A DNA stretch of 64,000 bases from Synechococcus sp. JA-2-3B'a(2-13) (lineage in GTDB: Bacteria > Cyanobacteriota > Cyanobacteriia > Thermostichales > Thermostichaceae), in contig NC_007776.1 in assembly GCF_000013225.1 (NCBI RefSeq), positions 577,277-641,276 on the forward strand. Reading direction: 5' to 3'. How positions within the stretch are numbered: the first letter of the stretch is position 1; every line of letters begins with the position of its first letter. Shown here in pieces: positions 8,552 to 62,574 of the stretch. The notes under the pieces were generated by a model. That model had not been told where the DNA came from. It did not search any database and saw only the letters and a program-made list of their open reading frames with translations. A program made the translations under genes and the position numbers.

Positions 8552-8903
8552 TTGGGCATGGTTGACCGCCCCTCAAGTATCAACCAGACCCCAGCGACAC
8601 AGCAGGGTTGTTCTCAATGGGGGTGAACTTCCCTCTTCCCCTGGGAGAGGGGCTGGGGCGGTGCTGCTCGCGCCAGCGGGACGGAGTCCTTTCGCGCCAG
8701 CGGGACGGAGTCCTTACACTTGGGCTATTTCAAACCAACTTGCAGTGACCGTACTGGCGATCTCTACGGTTGGTTCTTGCAGTTACGGCTCAGGGAAAAT
8801 AATGGTTTAATGGTGACTTAACAGTCGAAACTTCCTGGCCCAGGCCGGAACGCTCTCGGCAGGGCCTCTTGTCATTAGCCTGGGATCCCTTCTCCCCTTG
8901 CCT
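8552..8903. other. Gap holding a tandem 24-bp pair
   Basis: About 350 bases without a gene between the protease and the betaine-binding protein. The only structure I see is the tandem pair of 24-bp units at 8668-8715 and a short GGAGAG-GGG purine run before it. The promoter of the ABC operon should lie in its right half. Confidence 0.5.
8668..8715 (+). repeat. 24-bp interspersed unit, tandem pair
   Basis: Two head-to-tail copies at 8668-8691 and 8692-8715 of the unit that starts TCGCGCCAGCGG and ends GGAGTCCTT. They are intergenic. This pair defines the 24-bp period used for the other copies. Confidence 0.95.
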
Positions 8904-9827
8904 ATGCTGAAAACCACTCGTCGCTTGGCTTTGCTGGCCCTGTCGGGGCTGGCAGCTCTTGTTCTCACTCCCCATCGCGCCAGCGGGACGGAGTCCTTAG
9001 GGGGCCTCGCCAAGCCCATTACCGTCGGCTCCAAGGACTTTACCGAGCAGTTTATTTTGGGGGAAATGTACGCCTTAGCCCTGGAGGCGGCAGGGTTCAC
9101 GGTGGAGCGCAAGCTCAACCTGGGGGGCACGCCGGTAGCCCATGCGGGCTTGTTGAGCGGCGAGATCGATCTCTACCCCGAGTACACCGGCACTGGCCTG
9201 CTGACAGTGCTCAAGTTGCCCAGCAGCGGCGACCCGGCAGAGGTGTACGCGACGGTGGCCCGCGAGTACGAGAGCCAGTTCCAACTGATTTGGCTGGATC
9301 CCGCCCCCCTGAACAACACCCAGGCCCTGGCCATGACCCGCGCCAGAGCGGCTGAGCTGGGCATTGCCACCATCTCGGACATGGTGGCCAAAGCGGGCGA
9401 GCTGGTGATGATCGGGCCGCCGGAGTTTCAAGCCCGCGAGGATGGCCTACCCGGGATCCAAGCCGTCTACGGTAATTTCCGGCTCAAGGCCTACAAAGCA
9501 GTGGATCCCGGCCTCCGCTACCAGGGCTTGGTCAATGGGGAAGCGGATGTGGCAGTGGCCTTCGGCACCGATGGAGAAATTGCCGCCTTTGACCTGGTGC
9601 TGCTGGAGGATGACAAGCAGCTTTTCCCCCCCTACCAGGTGGCGCCGGTGGTGCGCAAGGACACCCTGGAGGCCAACCCCGGCATTGCCGCTGCCTTAAA
9701 TGCCCTTTCCCCCCTGCTGACGGACGAGGTGATGCAGCGGTTGAACTACGAGGTGAGCGGCAACCGCAAGGAGCCGGCGGAGGTGGCCAGAACTTTCTTG
9801 GTGGAAGCCGGCATTCTCAAGAAATAA
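8904..9827 (+). CDS. Glycine betaine/choline-type ABC transporter substrate-binding protein (OpuBC/ProX-like)
   Basis: A 307-residue binding protein with signal peptide (LALLALSGLAALVLT) and an OpuAC-type fold. VGSKDFTEQFILGEMYALA is the classic start of the mature domain, and GEIDLYPEYTGTGL and VNGEADVAVAFGTDGEIAAFD are conserved. It binds quaternary-amine osmolytes in related systems. A 24-bp unit (8975-8998) lies in frame between signal peptide and mature domain, encoding RASGTESL, so it probably falls in a flexible segment. It is followed by an ATPase (27 bases later) and a permease, completing an importer. The start ATG at 8904 is chosen over an in-frame TTG six bases upstream. Confidence 0.88.
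   Translation: MLKTTRRLALLALSGLAALVLTPHRASGTESLGGLAKPITVGSKDFTEQFILGEMYALALEAAGFTVERKLNLGGTPVAHAGLLSGEIDLYPEYTGTGLLTVLKLPSSGDPAEVYATVAREYESQFQLIWLDPAPLNNTQALAMTRARAAELGIATISDMVAKAGELVMIGPPEFQAREDGLPGIQAVYGNFRLKAYKAVDPGLRYQGLVNGEADVAVAFGTDGEIAAFDLVLLEDDKQLFPPYQVAPVVRKDTLEANPGIAAALNALSPLLTDEVMQRLNYEVSGNRKEPAEVARTFLVEAGILKK
8975..8998 (+). repeat. 24-bp unit inside betaine-binding protein gene
   Basis: One unit in the frame that reads RASGTES-L, placed just after the signal peptide. Reading frame is preserved. Confidence 0.95.
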
Positions 9828-11448: not shown

Positions 11449-11472
11449 AAGGACTCCGTCCCGCTGGCGCGA
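11449..11472 (-). repeat. 24-bp unit, intergenic
   Basis: One unit in the gap between the permease and sigma-factor genes, in the AAGGACTCC...GCGCGA orientation, followed by TCGGG so that the junction reads GCGATCG. Confidence 0.95.
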
Positions 11473-11519: not shown

Positions 11520-12185
11520 ATGGGTGAGCAACCAGGGACTCCGTCCCGCTGGCGTGAGCGGGTGAGAGATTGGTCATCCCGCGCCGATTGGGAGCTGATG
11601 GAAGCGCTCAAGGCGGGGCAACCTGCTGCTCTGGCTGCGCTCTACGATCGCTATGCCGGCTTGGTCTATGGGCTGGCCTTCAAGATCCTGGGCCACGTGG
11701 CCGAGGCAGAAGACCTGACTCAGGAGGTGTTTGTCGAGCTGTGGCGCAAGGTTGGCTGTGATCCAAGGACTCCGTCCGAGTCGCGCGAGCGGCGGGGATC
11801 CCTGAGCAGTTTTTTGTGCATCCTGACCCGCTCGCGGGCCATTGACCGTCTGCGTTCTCAGGGCAGCCACCAACTTCTTTTGAAACGCTGGCAGACCATT
11901 CTCAGCGCCGATCGCGTCAGCGGGACGGAGTCCTTTAGCAAGACTCGGTTCCCTTTTGAGCAGGTTTCCATCGAGGAGCGGCGGCAAGCGGTGCAAGCGG
12001 CCCTCAGCCAATTGCCCGAAAACCAACGGCAGATCCTGGAGTTGCTCTATTACCAAGGGTTGAGCCAGGCGGACATTGCTCGCCAATTGGGGATCCCGTT
12101 GGGGACGGTTAAGACCCGCTCTCGCCAAGCTCTCTGCAAATTGCGGGGATCCCTGCGCGCCCTTCTGGGTTTCTGCTCGCGTTAG
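11520..12185 (+). CDS. ECF-type (group 4) sigma factor carrying several 24-bp units
   Basis: A 221-residue sigma factor. Region 2 is LYDRYAGLVYGLAFKILG followed by EAEDLTQEVFVELWRKV, and region 4 is LPENQRQILELLYYQGLSQ with the helix-turn-helix DIARQLGIPLGTVKTR. It directs RNA polymerase to alternative promoters, and the next gene encodes an RskA-like anti-sigma, so stress control by sequestration is expected. Units lie in frame at the N-terminus (PGTPSRWRER), after region 2 start (a diverged copy at 11765) and in the region 2-4 linker (DRVSGTESF). The stop codon TAG itself lies in a further unit at 12177. Start 11520 (ATG) is preferred to a GTG at 11496. Confidence 0.88.
   Translation: MGEQPGTPSRWRERVRDWSSRADWELMEALKAGQPAALAALYDRYAGLVYGLAFKILGHVAEAEDLTQEVFVELWRKVGCDPRTPSESRERRGSLSSFLCILTRSRAIDRLRSQGSHQLLLKRWQTILSADRVSGTESFSKTRFPFEQVSIEERRQAVQAALSQLPENQRQILELLYYQGLSQADIARQLGIPLGTVKTRSRQALCKLRGSLRALLGFCSR
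11534..11557 (-). repeat. 24-bp unit at N-terminus of sigma gene
   Basis: A near-consensus unit read by the sigma frame as GTPSRWRE, at residues 6-13. Confidence 0.9.
11765..11788 (-). repeat. Diverged 24-bp unit in sigma gene
   Basis: Begins AAGGACTCCGTCC and ends GCGCGA but differs in the middle (GAGTC instead of CGCTG). The sigma frame reads RTPSESRERR here. Confidence 0.7.
11912..11935 (+). repeat. 24-bp unit in sigma region 2-4 linker
   Basis: Variant with GTCAGC in place of GCCAGC. The sigma frame reads RVSGTES-F in the linker between the two DNA-binding domains. Confidence 0.92.
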
Positions 12186-12224
12186 CGGGACCGCGTCCTT
12201 TCGCGTTAGCGGGACGGAGTCCTA
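12177..12224 (+). repeat. Tandem 24-bp units supplying the sigma stop codon
   Basis: Two GTTAGC-variant units (12177-12200 and 12201-12224). The TAG at 12183-12185 inside the first unit terminates the sigma factor gene, which reads CSR then stop. Confidence 0.92.
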
Positions 12225-12251: not shown

Positions 12252-13082
12252 ATGGCCATGTCTGATCGCGTCAGCGGGACGGAGTCCTTTCGCGTCGGCG
12301 GGACGGAGTCCTTATCCACCTCGCCCCCTTTAACAGAGGAACGGGAAGAACTGGCCGGCTATCTGCTGGGGGACTTATCTCCTGAACAGGCGAGTGCTCT
12401 AGAGGCACGCCTAACTCAAGACCCTCGGCTGGTGGCCGAGCTGCAAGCTATGCAAGAAACCTTGGAGTTGTTGCCCTACGGATTGCCAGGAGTGCTCCCG
12501 CCCGCCAGCTTGCGCGACCAGGTGATGGCAGAGGTGGGGGCTATGGGCTTGCGCGAACAGGAGATGGCCATCCCCCTTCACTCCCCATTGCCTGCTTTTG
12601 GGGTTGGGTGGCGCTGGCTGGGAGGCTTGGTGGCGGCAATTTTGGTTCTGCTCAGCTTAGACAACTGGCGACTGCGGCAAGCACTGCAACTGGCCCAGCT
12701 AGAATCGGTGCGGGCATTATCCCATCTCTTGCAACAGCCGGGATCCCGTCTGGTGCATTTGCAGGGGGAGGTGGGGACGGCCAATGTGCTGTTTCGCCCA
12801 GGAGACTGGCAGGAGGTTATCTTGGCCGCACGGGATCTGCCCCAACCGGTGGCGGGGGAGCGCTACTCCCTCTGGCTCAAGCTGGATAATGGCGAGTTCC
12901 TCCACTGTGGTGACTTTCAGGTGGATGCTCAAGGCTCTGCTCTGGTGGCCCTACGCCCATCCCGCACGTTGCCGGCAGGTACCCGCGCCCAAGAGCTGCT
13001 GGTCGCGACCGGTTCCCGCCAACTGCCCGCTCGCGCTACTCGGACGGAGTCCTTGAAACCCCTTCTGACGGGCAAGGTGTGA
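12252..13082 (+). CDS. RskA-like anti-sigma factor
   Basis: A membrane-bound anti-sigma of about 276 residues. The cytoplasmic N-terminal part has EREELAGYLLGDLSPEQ and ARLTQDPRLVAEL, typical of anti-sigma-K type zinc-less domains. A transmembrane helix (WLGGLVAAILVLLSL) follows, then an extracytoplasmic RskA C-terminal domain (RPGDWQEVILAARDLPQP, YSLWLKLDNGEF). It should hold the ECF sigma factor encoded just upstream. Two tandem 24-bp units encode RVSGTESFRVGGTESL near the N-terminus, and one lies near the C-terminus (RATRTESL). ATG 12252 or 12258 could start; a TTG at 12228 is also in frame. Confidence 0.83.
   Translation: MAMSDRVSGTESFRVGGTESLSTSPPLTEEREELAGYLLGDLSPEQASALEARLTQDPRLVAELQAMQETLELLPYGLPGVLPPASLRDQVMAEVGAMGLREQEMAIPLHSPLPAFGVGWRWLGGLVAAILVLLSLDNWRLRQALQLAQLESVRALSHLLQQPGSRLVHLQGEVGTANVLFRPGDWQEVILAARDLPQPVAGERYSLWLKLDNGEFLHCGDFQVDAQGSALVALRPSRTLPAGTRAQELLVATGSRQLPARATRTESLKPLLTGKV
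12266..12313 (+). repeat. Tandem 24-bp units at anti-sigma N-terminus
   Basis: Units at 12266-12289 (GTCAGC variant) and 12290-12313 (GTCGGC variant), both read in the SGTES/GGTES frame. Confidence 0.93.
13031..13054 (+). repeat. 24-bp unit near anti-sigma C-terminus
   Basis: Diverged unit (CTACTC in the variable part), read as RATRTESL close to the end of the protein. Confidence 0.85.
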
Positions 13083-13777: not shown

Positions 13778-13801
13778 TCGCGCCAGCGGGACGGAGTCCT
13801 T
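13778..13801 (+). repeat. 24-bp unit, intergenic
   Basis: One consensus unit eight bases after the VanW stop codon. Confidence 0.95.
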
Positions 13802-14015
13802 TTTTCGCCCCATTGGCCCCCTACTTCAGCGTCTCAGGAGCAGCTCCCCAGCAACCTCCACACAGGGATCCATGTTAATTTCTACACCAACATGGTTAGC
13901 GACAGGGTCGGCGACAAGCCTCAAACCCTGATTCTTCCGTTGACCCGGTCGATCCCGCTCTGGGCAAGGGTTTCAGGCCCCTCGGCGGAGAAAAATAAGG
14001 GGAAATTGCAGCCGT

Positions 14016-14039
14016 TCGCGCCAGCGGGACGGAGTCCTT
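14016..14039 (+). repeat. 24-bp unit, intergenic
   Basis: One consensus unit between the two copies of the 22-base direct repeat. Confidence 0.95.
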
Positions 14040-14103
14040 AAACGAGACCCTGTCGATCTAGGCCCCTGGATCCCGCTCTGGGCAAGGGTTATAATCGGCG
14101 GAA

Positions 14104-14139
14104 GTCGCTTCCTTTCGGGGCAGTGGAATTAATGAAAAC
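14104..14139 (+). repeat. CRISPR-repeat-like orphan sequence
   Basis: A 36-base segment beginning GTCGCTTCC and ending ATTAATGAAAAC, with the inner CTTTCGGGG. It matches the segment at 14869-14904 at 28 of 36 positions. The GAAAC-type end is typical of cyanobacterial CRISPR repeats. It is unlike the active array repeat at 27.4 kb. Confidence 0.5.
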
Positions 14140-14906: not shown

Positions 14907-15803
14907 TCAAAGCAGACGGCCCAAGCGTTGCCGCAATTCGGTGGCAGCCAGCTCTAGGTGCTCGGGGGTGTAGCCGGTGGTTTCTACTCTGACAGCGAGG
15001 TGGGTGTCCTGGCTCTCGTGGAGGTGGATCCACAGAATGTGGCGGCCATCTTCGGTTTTGCGGTTTGAGGCTTTGACGCTGTTTTTGGGGGCAGCGTAGG
15101 CGTGTGGATCGTATCGAACCAGATCCACCCAGGGAATGTCTCGCAGGAGTCTTTCCACTTTGGCCCAACTGCGGGGTCGGTGATGGCTGGCATCGCTTCG
15201 GATTTGGATGATCTGGGAGCGATCTCGGCCTGAATCGGGGAGATCTGCCCGTGGGATCCGGGGCTGAACTTGCGGCTGTAGGTAGGGCAAGTAGACCAGG
15301 GATTTGTATTGCTCATGGATGTAGCAAACCGGGACCCCCAATTGGCTGCCCACCACAGCCATGATCATGGCTTGGGCTTTAAACCCGCCGGTAGCGGCAA
15401 AGGTGACGATCCCCCTGGCGCTCTCTGCCAACTGTTTCAACAGCTCGGCCATCCGCTCCAGTGAGGATCCCTCTAGCTCGTAGTTGATGCCGGGAAGGGG
15501 AACCAAAGAGACCTGCTGCTGACCCAGCTCTTGCTCAAAAAAGAGCTTCAAAATCTGGGCACACTCCAATCCGTCGGGGGTTTCTGAGTGCAGCAAAATC
15601 AAGGCATCATTCGAGGTGGGATCCAGCTGCAAGTAGGTGTTGGTTTCGGCGCTGATCAGCTCCAGATCGGTTCTTTTCATCCAGGCCAGCGCTTGCTCCG
15701 GATCCCCAATGGTTTTTTGTCCCAGCCAGGGGCGCTGCGGCTCTAGGTTCTTGTCGGGATTGGTGAGCAAGGAAGTGCCCACCGTCATGATGATGGTCTG
15801 CAT
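14907..15803 (-). CDS. APE2256-family CARF-domain protein (type III CRISPR ancillary)
   Basis: The 298-residue protein begins MQTIIMTVGTSLLTN, the hallmark of the APE2256 (TIGR02619) CRISPR-associated family, which has a CARF Rossmann fold. Other fold-defining segments are DALILLHSET, GIVTFAATGGFKAQAMIM and VPVCYIHEQYKSLVYLP. Family members in Sulfolobus (for example Sso1393) bind and slowly cleave cyclic tetra-adenylate. Here it could be a ring nuclease or a sensor-effector for the signal made by the Cas10 at the head of the operon. It is the last operon gene. A decayed paralogue carrying extra 24-bp units lies at 47324-48285. Confidence 0.85.
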   Translation of the reverse strand: MQTIIMTVGTSLLTNPDKNLEPQRPWLGQKTIGDPEQALAWMKRTDLELISAETNTYLQLDPTSNDALILLHSETPDGLECAQILKLFFEQELGQQQVSLVPLPGINYELEGSSLERMAELLKQLAESARGIVTFAATGGFKAQAMIMAVVGSQLGVPVCYIHEQYKSLVYLPYLQPQVQPRIPRADLPDSGRDRSQIIQIRSDASHHRPRSWAKVERLLRDIPWVDLVRYDPHAYAAPKNSVKASNRKTEDGRHILWIHLHESQDTHLAVRVETTGYTPEHLELAATELRQRLGRLL

Positions 15804-27400: not shown

Positions 27401-27435
27401 CTCACTTCTCTTTGCTCATTACTCGCTTCTCTCTA

Positions 27436-27991
27436 GTTTCCGTCCCCTTGCGGGGAAAAGGTAGGGATCAACAATACGAGCGAATTGACTGCGATATTCC
27501 TCACTACTATGGTTTCCGTCCCCTTGCGGGGAAAAGGTAGGGATCAACAAGCCTTGACGAGCAAGGACTGCTCCTACCGTTCTAAGCACAAGTTTCCGTC
27601 CCCTTGCGGGGAAAAGGTAGGGATCAACTTGGTTAAGGATGGCCTGGTCATAGACTTCTATGACTGTTTCCGTCCCCTTGCGGGGAAAAGGTAGGGATCA
27701 ACAACGAGACTAATTTTGGATCCGAATCGGAGTCTTTCGTTTCCGTCCCCTTGCGGGGAAAAGGTAGGGATCAACACGACATTCCCGAAGGCGCAACGAT
27801 CAAATGGGGGTTTCCGTCCCCTTGCGGGGAAAAGGTAGGGATCAACCATCCGGGAAACCGGGTGGGAGAGACTCTATTCAGCGTTTCCGTCCCCTTGCGG
27901 GGAAAAGGTAGGGATCAACAACATCGTCGATGGTTTTCCCCATTTCGACTGGGCGTTTCCGTCCCCTTGCGGGGAAAAGGTAGGGATCAAC
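27436..27991 (-). CRISPR. CRISPR array, eight identical 37-bp repeats
   Basis: Repeats start at 27436, 27512, 27592, 27666, 27739, 27810, 27883 and 27955. On the plus strand each begins GTTTCCGTCCCCTTGCGGGG and ends AGGGATCAAC. Spacers are 39, 43, 37, 36, 34, 36 and 35 bases. Read on the minus strand the repeat begins GTTGATCCC and ends GGGGACGGAAAC, with an internal CCCC-GCAA-GGGG stem. It resembles the Synechocystis CRISPR2 repeat, whose 5' tag is ACUGAAAC; here the tag would be ACGGAAAC. The leader is therefore on the right. Cas6 and the type III-D operon lie to the left. Confidence 0.98.
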
Positions 27992-29490: not shown

Positions 29491-30897
29491 GTCGGGGCGA
29501 TAAAACTGCAGCTCTGCCTGGGCTTCCCGAGCCATCTGTTCCCGGTAGGCCAGGGGAGCGATGACCTCGCCGTTGGGCCGCCAATCCCGCAGGCGCATGG
29601 TGAAATTGGTATCTCCCACCCGTACCCAGGCGCGGAAGTACCGGTCGCTGGTTGGTCTTTGCCGGACAATGTTCAAAATCTGTTCGCGCTCCCGCGCATC
29701 CGCCACTGCCTGCTGCACCAAAGCCGGGATCCGCTCGTAGGCAATGGGCTGGAAGGTGGGATGTCGCACTGTGCTTTCCACATAGCGACGGGCAAACTCC
29801 GGGGAAAATCGAAGGATCAACAATGCCTTGGGCAAGTAAAAATCGGATCCCCAGGCTTCTTCCCATGCTGCTTGGACTTCCTCTGGGCTGGGCAGCTTCT
29901 TTTGCCGTTTGCGGATTGCCAGCTCTGGCGGAATGGAAGGAGCGTCCCAGGGAATCACCGCCAGGCGCTCAGACTGGATCCGATCTAAGCGGAAATTGTG
30001 CCAGCCCAGGGATCCTTCGGGGGTGGGAAGCTGGCCAAAGGCTGCCAAATACTTGGCGCGGCGGGCATAGAACAAACAGACTGGGTAAGTGAGAACGTGT
30101 CGGATCCCATGTTGGCGGGTGGCGTAGTCAAAACCGATCACCCCTGCTTCTGGGTTGGCCCAAAGGGCTTCTAGCTGGCTTTGATATTCATCCACCCGTT
30201 CTTGCTGTTCGTCCGAGAGGATGTACTCAAACCACACAAACAGCCGCCGCTGCGAGTGCTGATCGCGCCAGCGGGACGGAGTCCTTTGGTTGGCCCAGAT
30301 TTCATCCAGCAAAACCTGGACATCTGGATGCACAAAGGCCACATCGCTGAGGATGTGATAAATCTGCTCAAGCTGCTTGCCCGATAGAGTCCAAGTGGAT
30401 GAAGGTGCCGGCAACTGGGGATGAGCCCCTGGGGCGCAGCAGCGGAAGTTGTCTCTTCGCTTGGGGTTGGCCTGAATTTGCTGCAGCCAACCCTGGGCGG
30501 CCAGGTAGTCCAGCTCTTTGCGCAGGGTGCGGTGGGTCTTGTGAAAGGGTCGGGCAGATAGCAGCGCTTCCAGATCCGGAACTTCTACTTTTAAGGCGGC
30601 CAATAGGTTGGGATCCTTCAGCCAAAACCTCAAGGGTTTCCAGCAAATGCAGTCAACATCAGGACAGGGTGAAGGGATCCCTTGTGCCAGATCCTGCTTG
30701 GGGTGCCGTGGTGAGAGCAAGCGATCCCGGATGTGGGTGTAGCCAAAGGTTTCCGGCAGGTCTGGCCAGCGGTTTTCGCCATAGAGGCAGTGGAGCAGTA
30801 CCCACAGGCGCACGGCCCGCTCCAGGCGCTCGGCCAACTGACCGCCCGCTAACCAACGCAACACTTCCACCGTCAAAGGCAGCTCAAATCCGCTCAT
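29440..30897 (-). CDS. TIGR03985-type CRISPR-associated WYL regulator, C-terminus replaced by IS
   Basis: A 485-residue protein with an N-terminal helical DNA-binding part, the segment LEALLSARPFHKTHRTLRKE, a WYL-like middle (GVIGFDYATRQHGIRHVLTY, PVCLFYARRAKYLAAFGQLP) and a C-terminal domain. It fits the cyanobacterial CRISPR-associated family TIGR03985. WYL proteins regulate CRISPR and defence genes. Two oddities: a 24-bp unit at 30263-30286 is read in frame (RTPSRWRD), and the last 16 residues ([16 protein letters not shown]) come from the end of the IS. The native 22-codon end appears stranded at 28133-28200. Before the insertion it lay just upstream of the array, co-oriented. Confidence 0.82.
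   Translation of the reverse strand: MSGFELPLTVEVLRWLAGGQLAERLERAVRLWVLLHCLYGENRWPDLPETFGYTHIRDRLLSPRHPKQDLAQGIPSPCPDVDCICWKPLRFWLKDPNLLAALKVEVPDLEALLSARPFHKTHRTLRKELDYLAAQGWLQQIQANPKRRDNFRCCAPGAHPQLPAPSSTWTLSGKQLEQIYHILSDVAFVHPDVQVLLDEIWANQRTPSRWRDQHSQRRLFVWFEYILSDEQQERVDEYQSQLEALWANPEAGVIGFDYATRQHGIRHVLTYPVCLFYARRAKYLAAFGQLPTPEGSLGWHNFRLDRIQSERLAVIPWDAPSIPPELAIRKRQKKLPSPEEVQAAWEEAWGSDFYLPKALLILRFSPEFARRYVESTVRHPTFQPIAYERIPALVQQAVADAREREQILNIVRQRPTSDRYFRAWVRVGDTNFTMRLRDWRPNGEVIAPLAYREQMAREAQAELQFYRPDVNYPAPTAKRYGAGFQ
30263..30286 (+). repeat. 24-bp unit inside WYL-regulator gene
   Basis: One consensus unit, read by the minus-strand gene as RTPSRWRD; frame kept. Confidence 0.95.
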
Positions 30898-31062: not shown

Positions 31063-32031
31063 ATGGCTGCTGTGGCACTGCATTTGCTTTCCGGCTGTCT
31101 GGCCGCTCGCGCCAGCGGGACGGAGTCCTTTCGCGCCAGCGGGACGGAGTCCTTGGACCCTCGAAGATCCCATTCTTCGGAACTGTCTTTTCAGGTCATC
31201 GAAATTGAGCTGACCCGACCGGATCGCCTGGTTTTTCCAGAGGATTTGGCTCAGCTTCAGCTGCCTGCCGGGATCAATGCCCAGCTGGGGGTGGTTCTGA
31301 CGGGGCGGGCCCCCATTTGGCTGTATGGCTGGCTGGTGCATGAGTGCCACTTCACCCGTTGGGTGGCCTGTTATGACCCACGCTTGGGCGCGGTGGTGGT
31401 CTCCAGCCATACCCCCGAAGTGCGGGTGGGCCAGGTCATCCCCTGGGTGCAGGGAAGGCCGGGCAAGGCCTACGGCCCGCTGACGCGAACAGAATTGGCA
31501 GCGGCGGTGATGGTGGTGGGCCCCCCCGACAGTGGCAAAAGCCGTCTTGCCCGCGCCCTCTTCGAAGCTCTGCTGCCGGAGCATCCCGATATTTATCTGC
31601 AACGGGCCCATTGGGATGGGGAAGGCAATTGGACTTTAGACTTGCCACCAGAAGAGGCGAAGATCCTCAAGCACCAGTACCGGGGCTCTTTTACCCCCGA
31701 ATTTTTCAGCTTCCATGCCCAGGCCATTCTGGCTTTGCGCCGGCAAAAGAGTTTGGTGATTGTGGATGTGGGCGGCAAGGTGGATCCGCAAAAGCAGCCG
31801 ATCCTGGAAGCCTGCTCCCACTACCTGGTGGTCAGCCGGGATCCCGAGGCTATCCCTCTCTGGCACGAGTTTTGTCGAGACCGGGGCAATTTGCGCTGTG
31901 TGGCCATCCTGCACACCTCGCCCGGCCCTCCTCAAGTGCTCAAAGACTCACCTGAGTTGGAAATTCGCTGGGATCCCAACTCTCCTCCCCCCGCGGAGCT
32001 GCTTCGGGCGGTGCGCCGCTTGATTGCCTAG
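31063..32031 (+). CDS. csx3: Csx3 fused to a P-loop ATPase domain
   Basis: A 322-residue protein. The Csx3 domain (residues about 42-135) shows GRAPIWLYGWLVHECHFTRW and VACYDPRLGAVVVSSHTPEV, matching the family of cyclic tetra-adenylate ring nucleases (Crn3). The second half has Walker A (GPPDSGKS, near residue 151), SLVIVDVGGKV as a Walker-B-like strand and HYLVVSRDPEAI. Such Csx3-ATPase fusions are known in cyanobacteria; the role of the ATPase is not settled. The N-terminal 40 residues are largely two 24-bp units (RASGTESFRASGTESL). The start is uncertain: ATG 31063 includes the units, a later TTG would exclude them. Confidence 0.88.
   Translation: MAAVALHLLSGCLAARASGTESFRASGTESLDPRRSHSSELSFQVIEIELTRPDRLVFPEDLAQLQLPAGINAQLGVVLTGRAPIWLYGWLVHECHFTRWVACYDPRLGAVVVSSHTPEVRVGQVIPWVQGRPGKAYGPLTRTELAAAVMVVGPPDSGKSRLARALFEALLPEHPDIYLQRAHWDGEGNWTLDLPPEEAKILKHQYRGSFTPEFFSFHAQAILALRRQKSLVIVDVGGKVDPQKQPILEACSHYLVVSRDPEAIPLWHEFCRDRGNLRCVAILHTSPGPPQVLKDSPELEIRWDPNSPPPAELLRAVRRLIA
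31107..31154 (+). repeat. Tandem 24-bp units at Csx3 N-terminus
   Basis: Units at 31107-31130 and 31131-31154 upstream of the recognisable Csx3 domain, in frame from ATG 31063. Confidence 0.95.
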
Positions 32032-33001: not shown

Positions 33002-33904
33002 TTACCGGTAAGCCGCCTCTGGGTTGGCTTCATGGCCGTAGAGATAGCTGAGAACCGAGTTGCGCAGGCGGTAGTACTGCGGATCTTCAAGAATCCGCTC
33101 GCGATCCCGAGGGCGCGGGAAGGGGATGGTCACGATCTGCCCGATGGTGGCTGCAGGGCCATTGGTCAAAGGACTCCGTCCCGCTGGCGCGAAAGGACTC
33201 CGTCCCGCTGGCGCGATCAGCACCAGGCGGTCGGCCAAAAACAGCGCCTCATCAATGTCGTGGGTAATCATCAAAACCGTGCAGCGATGTTCATCCCAAA
33301 TGCGCAACAGCTCCTCTTGCAGCTCCTCTTTGGTAATGGCATCCAAGGCCCCGAAGGGTTCATCCAAAATCAGCACTTCTGGACGGATGGCCAACGCACG
33401 AGCAATGGCTACCCGCTGTTTCATCCCTCCCGAAATTTGCGAGGGATATTTCTGAGCGGCTTCCCCCAGCCCCACCAAATCCAAATGTTCTTCCACAATT
33501 CGATGCTTTTCCGACTGGCTCTTTTGGGGAAATACCGACCGAACGGCCAAATAAACATTTTCATAAACCGTGAGCCAAGGCAACAGGGCATACCCTTGAA
33601 ACACTACCATGCGCTCCGGGCCAGGAGCTGTAATCGGCTGCCCTTTCAGCTTCACCGAGCCACTGGTGGGCTGGGCAAATCCGGAAACCATATTCAGCAG
33701 GGTGGTTTTGCCACAGCCGGAATGCCCAACCAAGCAGACAAACTCTCCCTCGTTCACACTGAGGTTGATATCTCGCAAGACGGGATAATCCCCCTTGGGA
33801 GTTGAGTAGGTCTTGCTGACATTCTCAAGGCTTAGGTAGGGTTCTGCGGCTACGTTCGCTGGGGTAGAGGTTGTCAAGAGGGCAGTCATCGTAGGGTGCT
33901 CCAA
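33002..33904 (-). CDS. cmpD: CmpD/NrtD-type ABC transporter ATP-binding protein
   Basis: A 300-residue ATPase: Walker A VGHSGCGKTTLLN, signature ISGGMKQRVAIARAL, Walker B VLILDEPFGALD, H-loop MITHDIDEAL. It is the last gene of a four-gene importer (37376, 36027, 33961, this one) of the bicarbonate/nitrate class. Two 24-bp units in tandem (33169-33216) are read as APAGRSPFAPAGRSP between DRLVLI and LTNGPAA, lengthening the segment after the H-loop by 16 residues. The cmp rather than nrt name rests on the binding protein (see that entry). Confidence 0.85.
   Translation of the reverse strand: MEHPTMTALLTTSTPANVAAEPYLSLENVSKTYSTPKGDYPVLRDINLSVNEGEFVCLVGHSGCGKTTLLNMVSGFAQPTSGSVKLKGQPITAPGPERMVVFQGYALLPWLTVYENVYLAVRSVFPQKSQSEKHRIVEEHLDLVGLGEAAQKYPSQISGGMKQRVAIARALAIRPEVLILDEPFGALDAITKEELQEELLRIWDEHRCTVLMITHDIDEALFLADRLVLIAPAGRSPFAPAGRSPLTNGPAATIGQIVTIPFPRPRDRERILEDPQYYRLRNSVLSYLYGHEANPEAAYR
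33169..33216 (-). repeat. Tandem 24-bp units inside ATPase gene
   Basis: Units at 33169-33192 and 33193-33216, here read in the third frame of the unit (APAGRSP), so insertion frame is not fixed. Confidence 0.95.
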
Positions 33905-47308: not shown

Positions 47309-47651
47309 TTCCCTGGGGGGAACTCACACCAGACGACCCAAGCGCTCCCGCAACTCAGCGGCGGCCTGCTCCAGGTGCTCAGGGGTGTAACCGGTGGTCT
47401 CTACCCTGACAGCAAGGTGGGTGTCCTGGCTCTCGTGGAGGTGGATCCACAGAATGTGGCGGCCGTCCTCTGTTTTGCGGTTTGCAGCTTTGAGGCTGTT
47501 TTTGGGGGCAGAGTAAGCGTGCGGGTCGTAGCGGACCAGATCCACCCAGGGAATGTCTCGCAGGAGTTTTTCCACCTTGACCCAGCTGCGAGGACGGTGG
47601 TGGCTGCTGTCGACCTGCAGCTGGATGACTTCGGAGCGAGGTCGGCCTGAA

Positions 47652-47699
47652 AAGGACTCCGTCCCGCTGGCGCGATAGGACTCCGTCCCGCTGGCGCGA
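47652..47699 (-). repeat. Tandem 24-bp units at a filled site
   Basis: 48 bases absent from the paralogue at about 15234, where the surrounding bases are continuous (CCTGAA joined to TCGGG). The second unit begins T instead of A. Confidence 0.97.
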
Positions 47700-48104
47700 T
47701 CGGGAAGACCTGCCCGAGGGATCCGGGGCTGAACTTCCGGCTGTAGGTAGGGCAGGTAGACCAAAGACTTGTATTGCTCATGGATGTAGCAAACTGGGAT
47801 CCCCAATTGGCTGCCCACCACAGCCATGATCATGGCTTGGGCTTTGAACCCACCGGTGGCGGCAAAGGTGACGATCCCCTTGGCGCTCTCTGCCAACTGT
47901 TTCAACAGCTCGGCCATCCGCTCCAGAGAGGATCCCTCTAGCTCGTAGTCGATGCCGGGAAGGGGCACCAGAGAAACCTGTTGTTGGCCCAGTTCTCTTT
48001 CAAAGAAGAGCTTCAAAATCCGGGCACACTCCAGCCCATTGCGGAGTGCAGCAGAACCAAAGCATCGCCGGGGGTGGGATCCAGGCGGTAGTAGGTGTTG
48101 GTTA

Positions 48105-48128
48105 AGGACTCCGTCCCGCTGGCGCGAT
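48105..48128 (-). repeat. 24-bp unit at a filled site
   Basis: 24 bases absent from the paralogue near 15645, where GTTGGTT is joined directly to TCGGCGCTGATC. Confidence 0.97.
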
Positions 48129-48299
48129 CGGCGCTGATCAGCTCCAGATCGGTTCTTTTCATCCAGGCCAGCGCTTGCTCCGGATCCCCGATGGTTTTTT
48201 GTCCCACCCAGGGGCGCTGCGGCTGCAGGTCTTTGTCAAGGTTGGTGAGCAAGGAGGTGCCCACAGTCATGATGATGGTCTGCATGATAGGCGGTTAAC

Positions 48300-48690: not shown

Positions 48691-48888
48691 GGCTACATCT
48701 TCAGAGACTACCGCAAGTGGAACATTCATACTGAACAGTATCTGCGCGACCTTTGCTTCGAGACTGTTGAAGAATCTAATCACATCAAAATTCGGTTTTA
48801 TGGAGATCCGCGCTATCAAATCGTTATGGCTAAAACTCCTGGCGACTGGAGGGCTGGCTGCAATATTTCAAGGACTCCGTCCCGCTAA
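48691..48888 (+). pseudogene. Possible gene fragment
   Basis: An open stretch without a start codon reads GYIFRDYRKWNIHTEQYLRD, then LCFETVEESNHIKIRFYGDP, and stops at a TAA contributed by a 24-bp unit variant (48870-48893). It looks protein-like, but I recognise no family. An overlapping ATG frame (48767-48997) is an alternative. The AT-rich composition suggests foreign origin. Confidence 0.35.
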
Positions 48889-48893
48889 CGCGA
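48870..48893 (-). repeat. 24-bp unit, CTAACG variant
   Basis: Variant unit outside recognised genes; its TAA closes the fragment at 48691. Confidence 0.92.
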
Positions 48894-49038: not shown

Positions 49039-49710
49039 ATGTTCTACCTGCCGGTCTCGCTGCTGTTGTTTTTCATGCTGGTGTTGCTGCTGCCTTTCCT
49101 CTGGCTGGGGCTGGCAGTGGATGTGGTGGCGCTGGCGGTGGGAAAGCTGGGGTTCTCGCGGGAGGGAGCGCTGTTACTGCTGCTGGCCATCCTGGTGGGC
49201 AGCTCGGTCAATATTCCCCTCTATCGGGTGAAATGCGAGGTGACGCTGGTAGAAGACCTAGCTAGCTTGTGGATGCGGCAGTTCTGGGGGATCCCTTTGA
49301 CCAAGCTTTCCCAGGAGACGGTGATTGCCTTGAACGTGGGCGGGGGGCTGATCCCGGTGCTCTTGGCCCTATATCAATTTGGGCGGGCCGACAGCGTGCT
49401 GATCCTGGCGGTGACGGCGCTGGTAACCTTGGTCAGCTACTATGCTTCCCACGTGGTGCCGGGGATCGGCATTCAAATGAACCCCTTGATTGCCCCGGCT
49501 ACGGCAGCCTTAGCCGCTCTGTTTTGGGCAGGGGACCAGGCACCGGCAGTGGCCTTTGCTGGTGGAGTTTTGGGCACGGTGATCGGGGCAGATCTCCTGC
49601 ATCTGCCAGAAGTCCTGCGGCGCAACTGCTCTGGCATTCTCAGCATTGGCGGGGCCGGGGTTTTCGATGGTATTGCCCTCTGTGGCTTGTTTGCCCTGCT
49701 GCTGAGCTAA
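49039..49710 (+). CDS. DUF1614 membrane protein
   Basis: A 223-residue polytopic membrane protein with about six helices. NVGGGLIPVLLALYQFGRAD, the HVVPGIGIQMNPLIAPATAA segment and SIGGAGVFDGIALCGLFALL are typical of the DUF1614 family. The conserved GGAGVFDGI region contains an Asp within a membrane segment. Its biochemical role is unknown. The stop overlaps the convergent caspase-like gene by four bases. Confidence 0.87.
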   Translation: MFYLPVSLLLFFMLVLLLPFLWLGLAVDVVALAVGKLGFSREGALLLLLAILVGSSVNIPLYRVKCEVTLVEDLASLWMRQFWGIPLTKLSQETVIALNVGGGLIPVLLALYQFGRADSVLILAVTALVTLVSYYASHVVPGIGIQMNPLIAPATAALAALFWAGDQAPAVAFAGGVLGTVIGADLLHLPEVLRRNCSGILSIGGAGVFDGIALCGLFALLLS

Positions 49711-51905
49711 ACCAGCAAATAGGTAAGGGAAAGGGTGATGGATTGGGCGGGATCCAGCCAACGCAAGTCGGGATCCCCTAAGGACTCCGTCCCGCTGGCG
49801 CGATCGGAGGCACGCTGAGTCAACTCCTCGAGGAGCGTTTGCGTCCATTCCAGCGGCCCATTGAGCAACATCGGCGAACGGGCTACCCCCAGTTTGCGGG
49901 CCATAGCCTTGAGGGCTTCCAAGCTGGCGGACAGGGGGCGGGTGCTGGCCACAAACAACAGCTCCGTCAGCCCTTGGGCATGACAGGTGAGCAAGTCAGA
50001 GCTCACAGCAGAGCGCAGCTCGCCATCGACCTCCGGCAAGGGTGGCAAAGTTAAACTGCTCTTGGCTTCCAAGCGAAGAGGTGTGGTGAAGTTGTCCTGA
50101 GGCAGGGGGGCCAGCAGGTGCAGTTGTCCGGTCGGGTCGATCAGCAACAGGTAGCCGTAGAGATCCTGCTCGCTGTTGTTGCAAAGGGTGAGATGCAAGG
50201 GATCCCCTCGCGTAAACCGCTGCATACCCACCTCAGCAGGAGCGGAAGTTGCGGACTGGACAAGGCGTGCCGCCAACGAGGGAGCTAAGGACTCCGTCCC
50301 GCTGGCGCGATTGGCAGCTCTACCTTTGACGGCCAACTCCGCCACCACCGCCAAGGAAGAGGAAACCGCATTGAGGGTGGTGCGCAAACGTTTGGCAGCC
50401 AGCAGATGGGCAAGACGGGGAGCTAACCGCTGGACGGCCATTGCTGCAGCCTCTCCTGCTGGGCCACAGGAATTCAGGAGCAATTCTCGCCCCGGCCAGA
50501 ACAGGCTGTAGCTGTTCACTTCCAGGGGTTTGAGCAGGGTATCCGACCGTTCGCGCCAGCGGGACGGAGTCCTAAAAGCAGCGGCCATTTCCGGGGTGAT
50601 GCGGCCCAACAAACAGTCCACCTGTCGCTCGCGGGGGTTGGCCGTTTCCATCCAGCTATAGCCGGCAATGGCATTGGTCAGATCCACCTTTTCAATGCGG
50701 CCCAGGTTCTCCTCTAGGCCAACCAAAAGCTTGAGCGTGCTGGAGAGGCCGCGCAGCTGCTCCCGCAAAGGTGTGCCCACAGGGGGAAGCTGCCCTTCCG
50801 GACTGGCCATCTGAACCTGAGCCAACAGCCCACTGCGAGAACGCATGAGCAGCGGCGTCGGCGAAGAGGCGGAAGGATCGGCGGGAATGGGAACCAAAAG
50901 AGTACCCGGCTGCAAACCACACAGGGCCGCCGATGGGATCCCGCCTAACCACACCTGAGCCCGATTTCCCTTCACTTCTTGAACTACCCCGCTGACCCCT
51001 GCCGGTGTGGGCATGAGAAAATAGGGGTGGATGTGTCGAGCAGTGTCTTTGCCTTCCAAGGTGGGGCGTTGGCAGGCGAAGAGGCCCAGCTCCCGCCGGC
51101 TGACCACCTGGTTAAAGGCCACCAGCAGACGGGTGGCAGGCGTGGTTTCCCACAGGTACTGCGTCAGCAGATAGGTGAGTACCCCGGCATAGAATCCTGG
51201 CCAAGCGGCTTCTGCTGCCAAGTCTTGCGGGGTGGTGGCCGAAATCAGCAAGCCCTTGGGCGGAGACGGCCAAACCCGCTGCGGCTCCGATCGCGCCAGC
51301 GGGACGGAGTCCTTGGAGTCCGAGATCGCGGCTGGGGGACGGGAACGCAGTTGCAAGTTGCCTCGCACCGACGGCGAGACATAGGTAAAGCCACAGTCCA
51401 GAAGGGTGGTGATCTGGGCAGTGCCCAAGCCTTCCAAAAGCCGGAAAAAGCTGTCTAGCTCCATTGCTGCCACTCCCTCAGAGCCAGACAACAGCAGCAC
51501 CGGCTGCCAACAGTTGGGCGCGGATCCCAGCCGCCACTGGCCATAGCCGCTAAACTGCACCACCACTGTTTCAGCCGTGTGCCCTTGACCCCCCAAGTGC
51601 TCTGCAAAGGCCGATTGGATCCCAGCCGGCGTGGCTGCCCCATCGGTAAGGGTGAGAATGTCTGCCGGGTCAAAACCAAAGCGATAGAGGAGTAGCTCCC
51701 GCTGCAACTCCACATCTGTCAAACACCCTTGTAGCGCGGATCCCTCGCCAAGGTAGCGGTTAATACCGATGAGAACAGCCAGCTTGCGGGAGCCAGCCGC
51801 CAAAGCTTGCCCATATCGCTCAGCCCGGCCCCTCAACCAGCCAGGGGATAGGCCAAGACCGGCAGCAACCAGGAGGAGTTTTTGCAGAAAAGACCGCCTT
51901 TCCAT
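49707..51905 (-). CDS. Caspase-fold (orthocaspase-like) protein lacking the catalytic dyad, with DUF4384-like C-terminus
   Basis: From ATG 51905 the protein has 732 residues. A Tat-like or signal leader (RRSFLQKLLLVAAGLGLSPG) precedes a p20-like domain (KLAVLIGINRYLGEGSALQG). The usual catalytic His motif SGHG reads QFSGYGQW, and the usual DCCHSG reads LLDCGFTYV, so His is Tyr and the catalytic Cys is Gly. It is therefore a pseudo-caspase. The end has a DUF4384-like domain (LCNNSEQDLYGYLLLIDPTG). Four 24-bp units lie in frame. Pseudo-orthocaspases occur in cyanobacteria; function unknown. Confidence 0.82.
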   Translation of the reverse strand: MERRSFLQKLLLVAAGLGLSPGWLRGRAERYGQALAAGSRKLAVLIGINRYLGEGSALQGCLTDVELQRELLLYRFGFDPADILTLTDGAATPAGIQSAFAEHLGGQGHTAETVVVQFSGYGQWRLGSAPNCWQPVLLLSGSEGVAAMELDSFFRLLEGLGTAQITTLLDCGFTYVSPSVRGNLQLRSRPPAAISDSKDSVPLARSEPQRVWPSPPKGLLISATTPQDLAAEAAWPGFYAGVLTYLLTQYLWETTPATRLLVAFNQVVSRRELGLFACQRPTLEGKDTARHIHPYFLMPTPAGVSGVVQEVKGNRAQVWLGGIPSAALCGLQPGTLLVPIPADPSASSPTPLLMRSRSGLLAQVQMASPEGQLPPVGTPLREQLRGLSSTLKLLVGLEENLGRIEKVDLTNAIAGYSWMETANPRERQVDCLLGRITPEMAAAFRTPSRWRERSDTLLKPLEVNSYSLFWPGRELLLNSCGPAGEAAAMAVQRLAPRLAHLLAAKRLRTTLNAVSSSLAVVAELAVKGRAANRASGTESLAPSLAARLVQSATSAPAEVGMQRFTRGDPLHLTLCNNSEQDLYGYLLLIDPTGQLHLLAPLPQDNFTTPLRLEAKSSLTLPPLPEVDGELRSAVSSDLLTCHAQGLTELLFVASTRPLSASLEALKAMARKLGVARSPMLLNGPLEWTQTLLEELTQRASDRASGTESLGDPDLRWLDPAQSITLSLTYLLV
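49780..49803 (-). repeat. 24-bp unit in pseudo-caspase gene
   Basis: Read by the gene as RASGTES-L near the C-terminus; followed by TCGG so the junction is GCGATCG. Confidence 0.95.
50287..50310 (-). repeat. 24-bp unit in pseudo-caspase gene
   Basis: Read as RASGTES-L, frame kept. Confidence 0.95.
50551..50574 (+). repeat. 24-bp unit in pseudo-caspase gene
   Basis: Opposite orientation to the unit at 50287; read by the gene as RTPSRWRE. Confidence 0.95.
51291..51314 (+). repeat. 24-bp unit in pseudo-caspase gene
   Basis: Read as KDSVPLAR, a third reading of the unit within the same protein. Confidence 0.95.
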
Positions 51906-52208
51906 GTTGACCCTCTGGGCTGACCCCCGGCCCAACGACTACCCCATCGGCCAGCGAGCCACAGCTAAACTTTGCACTGGAATCTGTTGCTGCCTATTTC
52001 AGGATATCCCCATCCACACAGCTTTTTCCCGAGATCGAGTGACAGTTTTTGGCGTTTTCTTTGCATTCCTTATCAATCAAACCTCCGCTACTTCCCATGG
52101 GGATCCCACGGCAGCGCTCTTCTGTCAGCTAGAAATCGCAGGAGCCCCGCACTGTACCCGTAGGGTCAGTGTCGGGAGGAATGCGCTTTGATGAAGTACA
52201 ATGAACTT

Positions 52209-53426
52209 ATGAGCCAAGTCCTGAGCATATCCTGCAAGCTCAAGGTGTCCCCGTCGCAAGCCGCCAAATTGGACGAGACATTGGATGCTTTCGGCCAAGC
52301 CTTGAATTGGGTCAACCAAAACACGCCAGAGAAAGTCGTCAACGCCGTTAAGCTCCAGTCTCTGTGCTACCGCGAAATCCGCGCCCGGTTCGGCTTGTCC
52401 AGTAACTTGGCAAGGACTACGTCCCGCTTACGCGACCAGCAGGTCTGCAGACGGCTGGCCGGCGCCCGTAAAGTTGCCCGACAGAAAAACCGCCCCGTCA
52501 AAACGTTCAAGGGTGGCTTCGCTACCTACGATGCACGTATCTTTTCGTTCCGCGAGAAAGACTGGACGGTGTCGCTGACCACGGTGGAGGGTCGGGAGCG
52601 CTTTGAGCTGGCGATTGGCCGCTACCAGAGAGAACGGCTGGCGGGCTCCAATCCCAAATCTGCCACTCTGGTCAAGCGTAAAGACGGCTCCTACTCTATT
52701 CAGATCTGTGTGGAAACGGAGCCATCCCCACCGCAACGCACGGGTAGAGTGCTGGGGGTGGACTTGGGGAGGACGGATATTGCCCATACGTCAGAGGGTG
52801 ATAACTGGAATGGACAGCAGTTGAACCGAATCCGAGACCACTACTCCAAGCTGAGGGCGGCACTCCAACGCAAAGCCAGTAAGGGCACACGCAGTTCGCG
52901 GCGCAGATGCCGTCAACTGCTGCAACGGCTGTCTGGCAAGGAGAGACGCTTTCAAACGTGGGTCAATCATCGCATCTCCAAAGCTATTGTCTCCAGGGCA
53001 AAGGCTACCAACAGCGCTATCGCCCTGGAAGACCTGACAGGGATCCGGAAAAGAGTCAATCAACAGCCGCGCAGCAAAGCCGAGCGGCGCAGGGCCAACA
53101 GTTGGGCGTTCTACCAACTACGTCAATTTCTGGAATACAAGGCGAGGGTTGCAGGGGTTTCTCTGGTTCTTGTGCCGCCTGCTTACACGTCGCAGACCTG
53201 TCACAAGTGTTTACACATCCATCCCGACCCTGCGCAATCCTACCGCAGTGGAAAGAAGTTTAAGTGTGGACACTGTGGATGGGAAGGGGATGCGGATTTG
53301 AATGGTGCGAATGTGATTGCGCTCTTGGGGGCTGCCGTAAACCAGCCTGGAGGTCCGGGCTTGTTTTGTTCTCTGGTAGAGCAGAGCAGGCTCAGGGCTA
53401 CTGAAAGCCCGCTCCGTACCGCTTAG
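52209..53426 (+). CDS. tnpB: TnpB RNA-guided nuclease (copy B, with 24-bp unit)
   Basis: A 405-residue TnpB with intact RuvC residues (GVDLGRTDIAH, AIALEDLTGIR, GDADLNGANVIAL) and zinc-finger cysteines (CHKCLHIHP, CGHCGWEG). Start ATG 52209 (MSQVLSISCKLKV) is preferred to 52188. It contains one 24-bp unit near residue 70, giving ARTTSRLRD that copy A lacks. The stop lies in the right-end hairpin. Confidence 0.93.
   Translation: MSQVLSISCKLKVSPSQAAKLDETLDAFGQALNWVNQNTPEKVVNAVKLQSLCYREIRARFGLSSNLARTTSRLRDQQVCRRLAGARKVARQKNRPVKTFKGGFATYDARIFSFREKDWTVSLTTVEGRERFELAIGRYQRERLAGSNPKSATLVKRKDGSYSIQICVETEPSPPQRTGRVLGVDLGRTDIAHTSEGDNWNGQQLNRIRDHYSKLRAALQRKASKGTRSSRRRCRQLLQRLSGKERRFQTWVNHRISKAIVSRAKATNSAIALEDLTGIRKRVNQQPRSKAERRRANSWAFYQLRQFLEYKARVAGVSLVLVPPAYTSQTCHKCLHIHPDPAQSYRSGKKFKCGHCGWEGDADLNGANVIALLGAAVNQPGGPGLFCSLVEQSRLRATESPLRTA
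52412..52435 (-). repeat. 24-bp unit variant inside tnpB copy B
   Basis: Reads AAGGACTACGTCCC...TTACGCGA. Copy A has the empty site: AACTTGGC joined to CCAGCAGG near 28478. Confidence 0.97.
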
Positions 53427-53805
53427 CGGTCGGAGTCGGGTAGTTTACGTAGATCATCAGTAAAGTTGTGCCGATGGAGAGCACTACCAAAGCCGGCACC
53501 ACCCGCAGCAGGGATCCCCAAGGAATAGCAGCCCGCCAGTTGCCCCACAGCCGTCTCATCTGCAGATGGGCTTGCTGCCCCCGTCGCCAGCTCCAGATAC
53601 AGGTGAGGACAAATGTAGCGCAATAGACAAAGTCGGCCAGCAGAGGATCGTCAGATGGGAGATGAAACAGCTGGGCCAAGGCGATGGCTCCCAAGCCTAC
53701 CCCCAGGTTGATCACCAAGAAGGCCAACAGCAGGTGGCGCGCCTTAAGGGCTGCAAATCCGGTCACACTCGGCTCGGCAGGCCGTAGAGGGGGGGATCCA
53801 GACAC
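53398..53805 (-). CDS. Membrane protein with IS-derived C-terminus
   Basis: A 135-residue frame with three hydrophobic helices (LLLAFLVINLGVGLGAIALA, LADFVYCATFVLTCIWSW, VVPALVVLSIGTTLLMIY). The last 16 residues ([16 protein letters not shown]) come from the end of IS copy B, almost identical to the tail of the WYL regulator. Without the IS, the frame would run on to a TAG about 45 codons later, ending near 51993. It may be the N-terminal part of a larger membrane protein such as a CPBP-type protease; I cannot confirm that. Confidence 0.6.
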   Translation of the reverse strand: MSGSPPLRPAEPSVTGFAALKARHLLLAFLVINLGVGLGAIALAQLFHLPSDDPLLADFVYCATFVLTCIWSWRRGQQAHLQMRRLWGNWRAAIPWGSLLRVVPALVVLSIGTTLLMIYVNYPTPTAKRYGAGFQ

Positions 53806-61356: not shown

Positions 61357-62574
61357 ATGACCCAAGTCCTGACCGTCTCCTGCAAGCTCAAGGTAGCCCA
61401 GTCGCAAGCCGCCAAATTGGACGCGACTTTGGAGGCTTTTGGCCAAGCCTTGAATTGGGTCAACCAGAACACGCCGGAGAAGATCGTCAACGCGGTCAAG
61501 CTGCAATCCCTTTGCTACTACGAGATTCGAGCCCGGTTTGGCTTGTCCAGTAACTTGGCAAGGACTACGTCCCGCTTACGCGACCAACAGGTGTGCAGAC
61601 GGGTAGCGGGTTCCCGCAAAGTGGCTAAGCAGAAAAAGCGTCCCGTCAAGGAGTTTAAGAGCGGCTTTGTTACCTACGACGCCCGTATCTTTTCGTTCCG
61701 TCAAAAAGACTGGACGGTGTCGCTGACCACGGTGGAAGGGAGAGAACGCTTTGAACTGGCCATTGGCAACTACCAGCGTGGGATGCTGGCTGGTTCCAAC
61801 CCCAAATCTGCCACCCTGGTCAAGCGCAAAGATGGCTCCTACTACATCCAGATTTGCGTAGAGAAAAAGCCACCCAAACAACAAGATACCGACAAGGTGA
61901 TCGGGGTGGACTTGGGAAGGACGGATATTGCCCATACGTCAGAAGGGGACAACTGGAATGGACAGCAGTTGAACAGAGTCCGCGACCGCTACTCCCGGTT
62001 GAGGGCGGCACTCCAACGCAAAGCCAGTAAGGGCACACGCAGTTCGCGGCGCAGATGCCGTCAACTGCTGCAACGGCTGTCTGGCAAGGAGAGGCGCTTT
62101 CAGGCGTGGGTCAATCATCGCATCTCCAAAGCTATTGTCTCTAGGGCAAAGACCACAAACAGCGCTATTGCCCTGGAAGACCTGACAGGGATCCGGAAAA
62201 GAGTCAATCAACAGCCGCGCAACAAGGCCGAACGGCGCAGAACCAACAGTTGGGCGTTCTACCAACTGAGGCAGTTTCTGGAATACAAGGCGAGGGTTGC
62301 AGGGGTTTCTCTGATTCTTGTGCCGCCCGCCTACACGTCGCAGACCTGCCACAAGTGTTTGCACATCCATCCCGACCCTGCGCAATCCTATCGCAGTGGC
62401 AAGTCGTTCAAGTGTGGGCACTGTGGATGGGAAGGGGATGCGGATTTGAATGGTGCGAATGTGATTGCGCTCTTGGGGGCTGTCGTAAACCGGCCTAGAG
62501 GTCCGGGCCTGTTTTGTTCTCTGGTAGAGCAGAACAGGCTCAGGGCTACTGAAAGCCCGCTCCGTACCGCTTAG
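61357..62574 (+). CDS. tnpB: TnpB RNA-guided nuclease (copy C, with 24-bp unit)
   Basis: A 405-residue TnpB with the same RuvC residues and zinc finger as copies A and B. The region from about 61600 to 61900 is clearly more diverged (SRKVAKQKKRPVKEFKSGF, KKPPKQQDTDKVIGVDLG) than the rest, suggesting recombination between related elements. It carries the same 24-bp unit variant as copy B near residue 70. Confidence 0.93.
   Translation: MTQVLTVSCKLKVAQSQAAKLDATLEAFGQALNWVNQNTPEKIVNAVKLQSLCYYEIRARFGLSSNLARTTSRLRDQQVCRRVAGSRKVAKQKKRPVKEFKSGFVTYDARIFSFRQKDWTVSLTTVEGRERFELAIGNYQRGMLAGSNPKSATLVKRKDGSYYIQICVEKKPPKQQDTDKVIGVDLGRTDIAHTSEGDNWNGQQLNRVRDRYSRLRAALQRKASKGTRSSRRRCRQLLQRLSGKERRFQAWVNHRISKAIVSRAKTTNSAIALEDLTGIRKRVNQQPRNKAERRRTNSWAFYQLRQFLEYKARVAGVSLILVPPAYTSQTCHKCLHIHPDPAQSYRSGKSFKCGHCGWEGDADLNGANVIALLGAVVNRPRGPGLFCSLVEQNRLRATESPLRTA
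61560..61583 (-). repeat. 24-bp unit variant inside tnpB copy C
   Basis: Identical to the unit in copy B (ACTACG...TTACGCGA) and at the same site. Confidence 0.97.

Follow-up and report, generated by a model that had tools for sequence, protein, structure and literature searches.

Several families of short bacterial repeats resemble the 24-bp unit analysed here. The closest are the SDRs, very small mobile repeats of 21-27 nt that Elhai et al. 2008 (Genome Res) reportedly described in Nostoc and its relatives, and the likeness extends to the size class, the high copy number, compensatory changes in a common structure, the occurrence in minitransposons and precise insertion. PMC4390886 places one of them, SDR5, between nucleotides 3 and 4 of HIP1. 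The REP/REPIN and TnpA-REP (RAYT) system shares with the unit short hairpins, a high copy number and the position of some copies beside a Y1 gene, and the ends of IS200/IS605 elements (IS608, ISDra2) share single-stranded hairpins, a one-sided target motif and the absence of target duplication. Rickettsia palindromic elements (RPEs) are likewise palindromic units that lie in genes, in frame, and add a peptide; they are several times longer than the unit and unrelated to it in sequence. To our knowledge, the question of how elements of ~20-30 nt are mobilised has stood open ever since their description. The unit of this hot-spring cyanobacterium is among the smallest mobile elements whose individual jumps can be read directly, and its target rule, its one-base scar and its spatial signature are constraints for any mechanism.

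The window, that is, the whole 64-kb stretch of DNA analysed (G000:C1:577277-641276), belongs to a single-contig genome of 3,046,682 bp (3.05-Mb). The comparison set consisted of six genomes of the genus, the source genome G000 and its relatives G001-G005, of which G001 measures 2,932,766 bp and G004 is Synechococcus sp. M44_DOE_062; beyond the window, the DNA read comprised the stretches around unit copies and their orthologues. Two copies of a CARF gene, sharing only ~81% identity, differ by the presence of three units:

14907..15803, minus strand, CARF copy 1, intact, both sites empty (Pfam PF09651, E=1.2e-19)
47324..48285, minus strand, CARF (Cas_APE2256-like) copy 2, carrying a frameshift due to a separate 7-bp deletion
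47652..47675, plus strand, unit 1 of the tandem pair at site 1 of CARF copy 2; empty in copy 1, G001, G003, G004 and G005
47676..47699, plus strand, unit 2 of the same pair, starting with TAGG and preceding the target TCGGG
48104..48127, plus strand, single unit at site 2 of CARF copy 2, preceding the target TCGGC; empty in copy 1, G001, G004 and G005

The unit in copy 2 reads AAGGACTCCGTCCCGCTGGCGCGA. The preliminary description had claimed that copy 2 exceeds copy 1 by exactly 48 and 24 bp, and the alignment of the two copies bears out this surplus, together with the reported joins CCTGAA/TCGGG and GTTGGTT/TCGGCG and the lack of target duplication at both sites. Its second block, given as 48105-48128, is corrected to 48104-48127, because the empty join GTTGGTT/TCGGCG fixes the position. 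It had also proposed that the unit inserts, or is removed, as a discrete block: insertion is upheld by the contrast of empty and filled states at 44 independent sites, while removal as a block is at most a possibility. The check that it suggested, whether the unit-free state is ancestral, was run, and the orthologues are empty like copy 1 at the CARF sites (at site 2 these are G001, G004 and G005, with G003 giving no clean alignment there). Since copy 1 and the relatives are empty at the two sites, the units at both sites are, on this sequence comparison, gains in copy 2 and not losses. That copy 1 and its orthologues instead lost their units precisely is barely credible: such a loss would restore the same sequence, and site 33169, filled in G000 and G001 and empty in G004, leaves room for loss or recurrence, but this reading would call for independent precise losses at two sites in copy 1 and in as many as four relatives, with the same demand repeated at many of the 44 sites, which parsimony disfavours. 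The 7-bp deletion, ~60 bp from site 2, splits copy 2 into the ORFs 47324-48016 and 48013-48285; the units leave the frame open, and the open frame 47324-48235 covers all three of them. The locus of copy 2 is missing in G001, where just 339 bp lie between query positions 3027 and 4803. A search of viral contigs for CARF gave no match, and carriage of the unit by phage was rejected, the single viral match being an unpaired chance match.

The window contains 26 matches to the unit with at most 3 mismatches, against 0.00 expected in shuffles. The whole G000 genome holds 269 copies when two loop bases are left free (reversed-pattern control: 0) and 308 once the stem is allowed to vary. All genus members searched carry the unit, with 24-203 copies in each of the five others and the 203 in G004, and the exact type has any match in 14 of 390 cyanobacterial genomes, making it nearly confined to the genus; an Rfam search with the unit returned no match. 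The other units and the genes that host some of them are the following:

8668..8715, minus strand, tandem pair of units (pattern search)
8975..8998, minus strand, unit in an OpuAC-domain gene; five relatives empty
11449..11472, plus strand, unit (pattern search)
11534..11557, plus strand, diverged unit near the start of a sigma-70 family gene; G001 empty, G004 filled
11765..11788, plus strand, variant unit; G001, G003 and G004 empty
11912..11935, minus strand, unit; G001 and G003 empty
12177..12224, minus strand, two units; one in G004
12266..12313, minus strand, two units of unlike sequence; one in G004, none in G001
13031..13054, minus strand, variant unit; G004 empty
13778..13801, minus strand, unit; G004 empty
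14016..14039, minus strand, unit (pattern search)
30263..30286, minus strand, unit in a 485-aa open frame; G001 and G004 empty
31107..31154, minus strand, tandem pair; G001 and G004 empty, target T changed to G
31465..31488, plus strand, unit with swapped stem GGCC/GGCC, common to G001 and G004
33169..33216, plus strand, tandem pair in an ABC-transporter gene; one unit in G001, none in G002-G005
48870..48893, plus strand, unit with AA loop (pattern search)
49707..51935, minus strand, caspase-domain (Peptidase_C14) gene, 742 aa, with four 8-aa insertions in three frames
49780..49803, plus strand, unit in the caspase-domain gene; G001 and G004 empty
50287..50310, plus strand, unit in the caspase-domain gene; G004 empty
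50551..50574, minus strand, unit in the caspase-domain gene; five relatives empty, +1 base T changed to A
51291..51314, minus strand, unit in the caspase-domain gene; G004 empty
52125..53449, plus strand, IS605-type tnpB element, with ends unlike the unit and the unit's target
52412..52435, plus strand, unit inside tnpB of this high-copy IS605-type element; copies in G001 and G005 empty
61560..61583, plus strand, unit inside the second copy of the IS605-type tnpB element (pattern search, orthologue comparison)

The clearest single illustration of gain is the caspase-domain protein, whose G004 orthologue (89% identical) has gaps exactly at the four 8-residue insertions. By adding 8-residue peptides in several frames, the units are a steady source of in-frame protein change, of which this protein with its four insertions is an example. 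The variant units at 11765-11788 and 13031-13054 have another second half, CCGAGT[A/C]GCGCGA, in which the usual second hairpin is not formed. The IS605-type tnpB element is present in dozens of copies in G000, and the compared G000 copies hold a unit in tnpB, the G001 copy none; this element was rejected as a source of the unit, as both its ends and its site differ.

Every unit with orthologous DNA was compared, and 44 independent sites have at least one relative with a clean empty join. At these sites, the gain is exactly 24n bp, it lies upstream of T-C-R-G(-C), and target duplication is absent. The pre-insertion consensus is H^T-C-R-G-C (T.82, C.73, R.84, G.84, C.55), the base at -1 being seldom G. 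The same T-C-R-G-C motif recurs as the 3' flank of 45 G001 copies taken as an independent set, and a flank of this type also stands beside unit copies in other cyanobacterial families. Moreover, the T adjoining the unit (+1) is altered at 26 of the 44 sites (59%), compared with 145 of 1012 (14%) other flanking positions (P=4e-11), and the net gain stays 24n despite this overwriting. Loop type and the +1 base show no correlation; targeting guided by the loop was rejected, the variable loop pair having no clear correlation to the target bases.

The folded unit consists of two hairpins side by side, with stems 3-6/10-13 and 14-16/21-23, and its top strand is laid out as AA-[GGAC TCC GTCC]-[CGC TNNC GCG]-A. 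The first stem occurs as GGAC/GTCC, GGCC/GGCC, GTGC/GCAC, GCGC/GCGC and GGGC/GCCC, the remainder of the unit being kept. Three pairing tests agree with this structure. Among all units with at most 6 mismatches, cells altered on both sides of a stem are mostly Watson-Crick. An alignment of 52 sequences, hand-picked from 139 distinct units and biased to well-paired ones, has 35 compensatory cells against 8.3 in shuffles (0/500), and sliding the register abolishes the signal; the other two tests were not so picked. Lastly, when no constraint was put on the four variable stem bases, pairing was seen in 26 of the 29 exact-pattern copies of G001, among them every one of the 12 whose stem is GGCC, GCGC or GTGC. 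Compared with shuffles, neither strand stands out in its predicted folding energy. Loops closed by C-G and of the forms GNNA and GNA are found on the bottom strand, and cGNNAg and cGNAg are unusually stable loops in DNA. The hairpin d(GCGAAGC) has been described as extraordinarily stable (PMC6582339).

Taken as a whole, the blocks very probably represent a recently gained, site-preferring and structured 24-nt mobile unit, a grade that covers this statement of identity alone and not the route of copying. The unit matches the SDRs in its 24 nt and 269 copies, in a structure with compensatory changes and in its filled and empty sites (n=44). It is also found inside a minitransposon: a 282-bp minitransposon-like repeat, with dozens of copies 99-100% identical (L083 ~13921-14215; L193, L194, L185), includes a 306-bp subfamily set apart by the insertion of one unit (TTGGACTCCGTCCCGCTAACGCGA), on either side of which a base is changed. 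Conversely, in a comparison by description, its stems differ from those of the SDRs, and its second loop has four bases; its target is T-C-R-G-C, whereas that of SDR5 lies within HIP1. Specifically, SDR5 enters GCG^ATCGC, and the pre-insertion sites of the unit are H^TCRGC, with no upstream GCG. The polarised gains, the one-base scar and the local spread are further differences.

Two-hairpin repeats of this form are known from Nostoc and prompted a search of family f32, which we take to be the Nostocaceae. A form whose second loop has three bases, C-TNC-G-NNN-CGC-TNC-GCGA, reaches up to 90 copies per genome there (control: 0). Among 30 loci of this form, each of the three stem positions left free is paired in 22, and ACR follows the repeat at most loci. 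The unit appears to belong to a superfamily of two-hairpin repeats abundant in Nostocaceae, and it may be read as a Thermostichus branch of an SDR-type element, as judged by the likeness to SDRs as described. Outside the genus, the exact unit was seen in a small-genome cyanobacterial genus (g31; L198, L195-L197), with one tandem pair and with ACGG or TCAT flanks.

Copies that resemble each other lie close together. Pairs with the same loop within 50 kb number 145, against 65.6 expected after label shuffling (0/1000), and the G000 genome has 24 perfect GG-loop copies, the majority of them within the window; this clustering of same-loop copies within 50 kb indicates local spread. Neighbours within 5 kb have the same orientation in 116 cases against 90 (P=0.002) in pooled G000 stretches that were partly chosen among the matches listed; the orientation is also coherent in G004 (P=0.03) and reaches no significance in the window or in G001. 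The members of a tandem pair often have unlike loops (e.g., 321287/321311 and 325259/325283), and for this reason they are regarded as re-insertions; slippage was rejected for mixed-loop and diverged pairs and stays possible for identical ones. The second unit at 12266..12313 likewise looks like a new insertion rather than slippage. Insertion can therefore, to judge from these arrangements, occur beside a resident unit and produce tandem pairs. At 33169-33216 (L066:4722), the G001 unit occupies the same nucleotide and G004 is empty though closest in sequence there; the site may reflect either a precise loss in G004 or repeated insertion at one place. Long open frames contain 90 of 121 units, somewhat under the 89% coverage of such frames, and the GG form of the unit has no stop codon in any frame.

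For the copying route, the reading favoured, tentatively and at somewhat less than even confidence, is that the unit is copied locally through single-stranded DNA, with priming at the GCYG end of the target. The copied form would be the bottom strand; its loops match the stable motifs cGNNAg and cGNAg, and on this strand the unit enters 3' of GCYGA. The 3' end of the target strand, ...GCYG(A), would pair with the CRGC that flanks a resident copy close by, be extended across that unit and then return to its own template; the terminal A would often be swapped for the base of the donor template, leaving the one-base scar. That the +1 base is inherited from the donor is kept as a supposition, because it does not correlate with loop type. 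The new unit would keep CRGC alongside and hence inherit the target preference, and the short reach of copying would result in local spread. Template switching would not by itself explain the exactness of the left end.

The main rival, possible though on the unlikely side, is that an HUH (Y1) TnpA of the IS200/IS605-REP type mobilises the unit in trans as a minimal passenger, binding the hairpins on single-stranded DNA, excising or copying the unit and joining it, on the bottom strand, to the 3' side of GCYGA. IS608, for comparison, joins after TTAC. The one-sided target motif, the lack of target duplication and the two hairpins suit this rival, as does the element end CCTT, beside which there can be entry of another unit. 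Y1 transposase genes are present in all six genomes, with one intact in G000, and unit-like hairpins lie within ~100 bp of the tnpA 3' end both in G000, where they form an inverted pair, and in G004, recalling the REPs that flank RAYT genes (PMC6006769); the transposase could act on units there. However, a joining reaction of this kind should spare the flanking target base, and a T overwritten at 59% of the sites is hard to square with simple Y1 joining. On the bottom strand, a single unpaired base precedes the hairpin foot, leaving no room for a guide tetranucleotide, and GTAG/GTGG is absent. Furthermore, G004 has its many units with Y1 matches that are all broken or partial, the sampled Y1 loci of G002, G003 and G005 have no unit near, the G001 loci scanned have none within 100 bp and one ~450 bp off, and the ends of the high-copy tnpB element differ from the unit. 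In contrast to REP/REPIN, the unit has no GTAG/CGTC foot tag, is mostly intragenic and read in frame, forms head-to-tail tandems rather than mainly inverted pairs and has its junction base overwritten, and unlike IS200/IS605 ends, it is 24 nt overall, has no guide sequence and alters the target base on insertion.

An RNA copy reverse transcribed into nicked targets has reportedly been suggested for SDR elements in Nostoc. For the unit, such a route would agree with the conserved secondary structure and the one-sided target, and target-primed reverse transcription could presumably also leave a one-base scar, but it is judged highly unlikely: a search for RVT_1 across the six genomes, of which two are single-contig, gave no reverse transcriptase match, the loops suit stable DNA motifs better than the GNRA loops of RNA (TA alone of the common loops gives GNRA), and a diffusible RNA is not expected to cluster its products locally. 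As no reverse transcriptase is recognisable in these six genomes, the field of mechanisms is narrowed. A dedicated but unrecognised nuclease or recombinase, neither Y1 nor reverse transcriptase, is an unlikely agent too; the precise ends, the one-sided target and the recurrence of this rule in distant genera suggest a conserved machine acting in trans, yet in the data examined no gene shows a consistent linkage to units. The RVT_1 result and the pattern of linkage to Y1 tnpA genes are the reasons for ranking copying through single-stranded DNA first, followed by Y1 in trans, the unrecognised enzyme and RNA.

Under the favoured copying through single-stranded DNA, it is conceivable, if doubtful, that the unit is a self-spreading 24-nt DNA with no transposase of its own, moving by local same-strand template switching between its own CRGC 3' flank and matching sites. 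The whole element would then consist, on the same doubtful footing, of its structure and a four-base inherited microhomology.

Two minor observations concern single loci. At L085:9267-9314, two unit-like hairpins in inverted arrangement directly adjoin the stop codon of the one Y1 tnpA gene that is intact in G000, and the last codons of this gene appear to derive from a unit. Lastly, the window contains a short CRISPR-like repeat array at 27435-27704 (GTTTCCGTCCCCTTGCGGGG...) with a period of 76.
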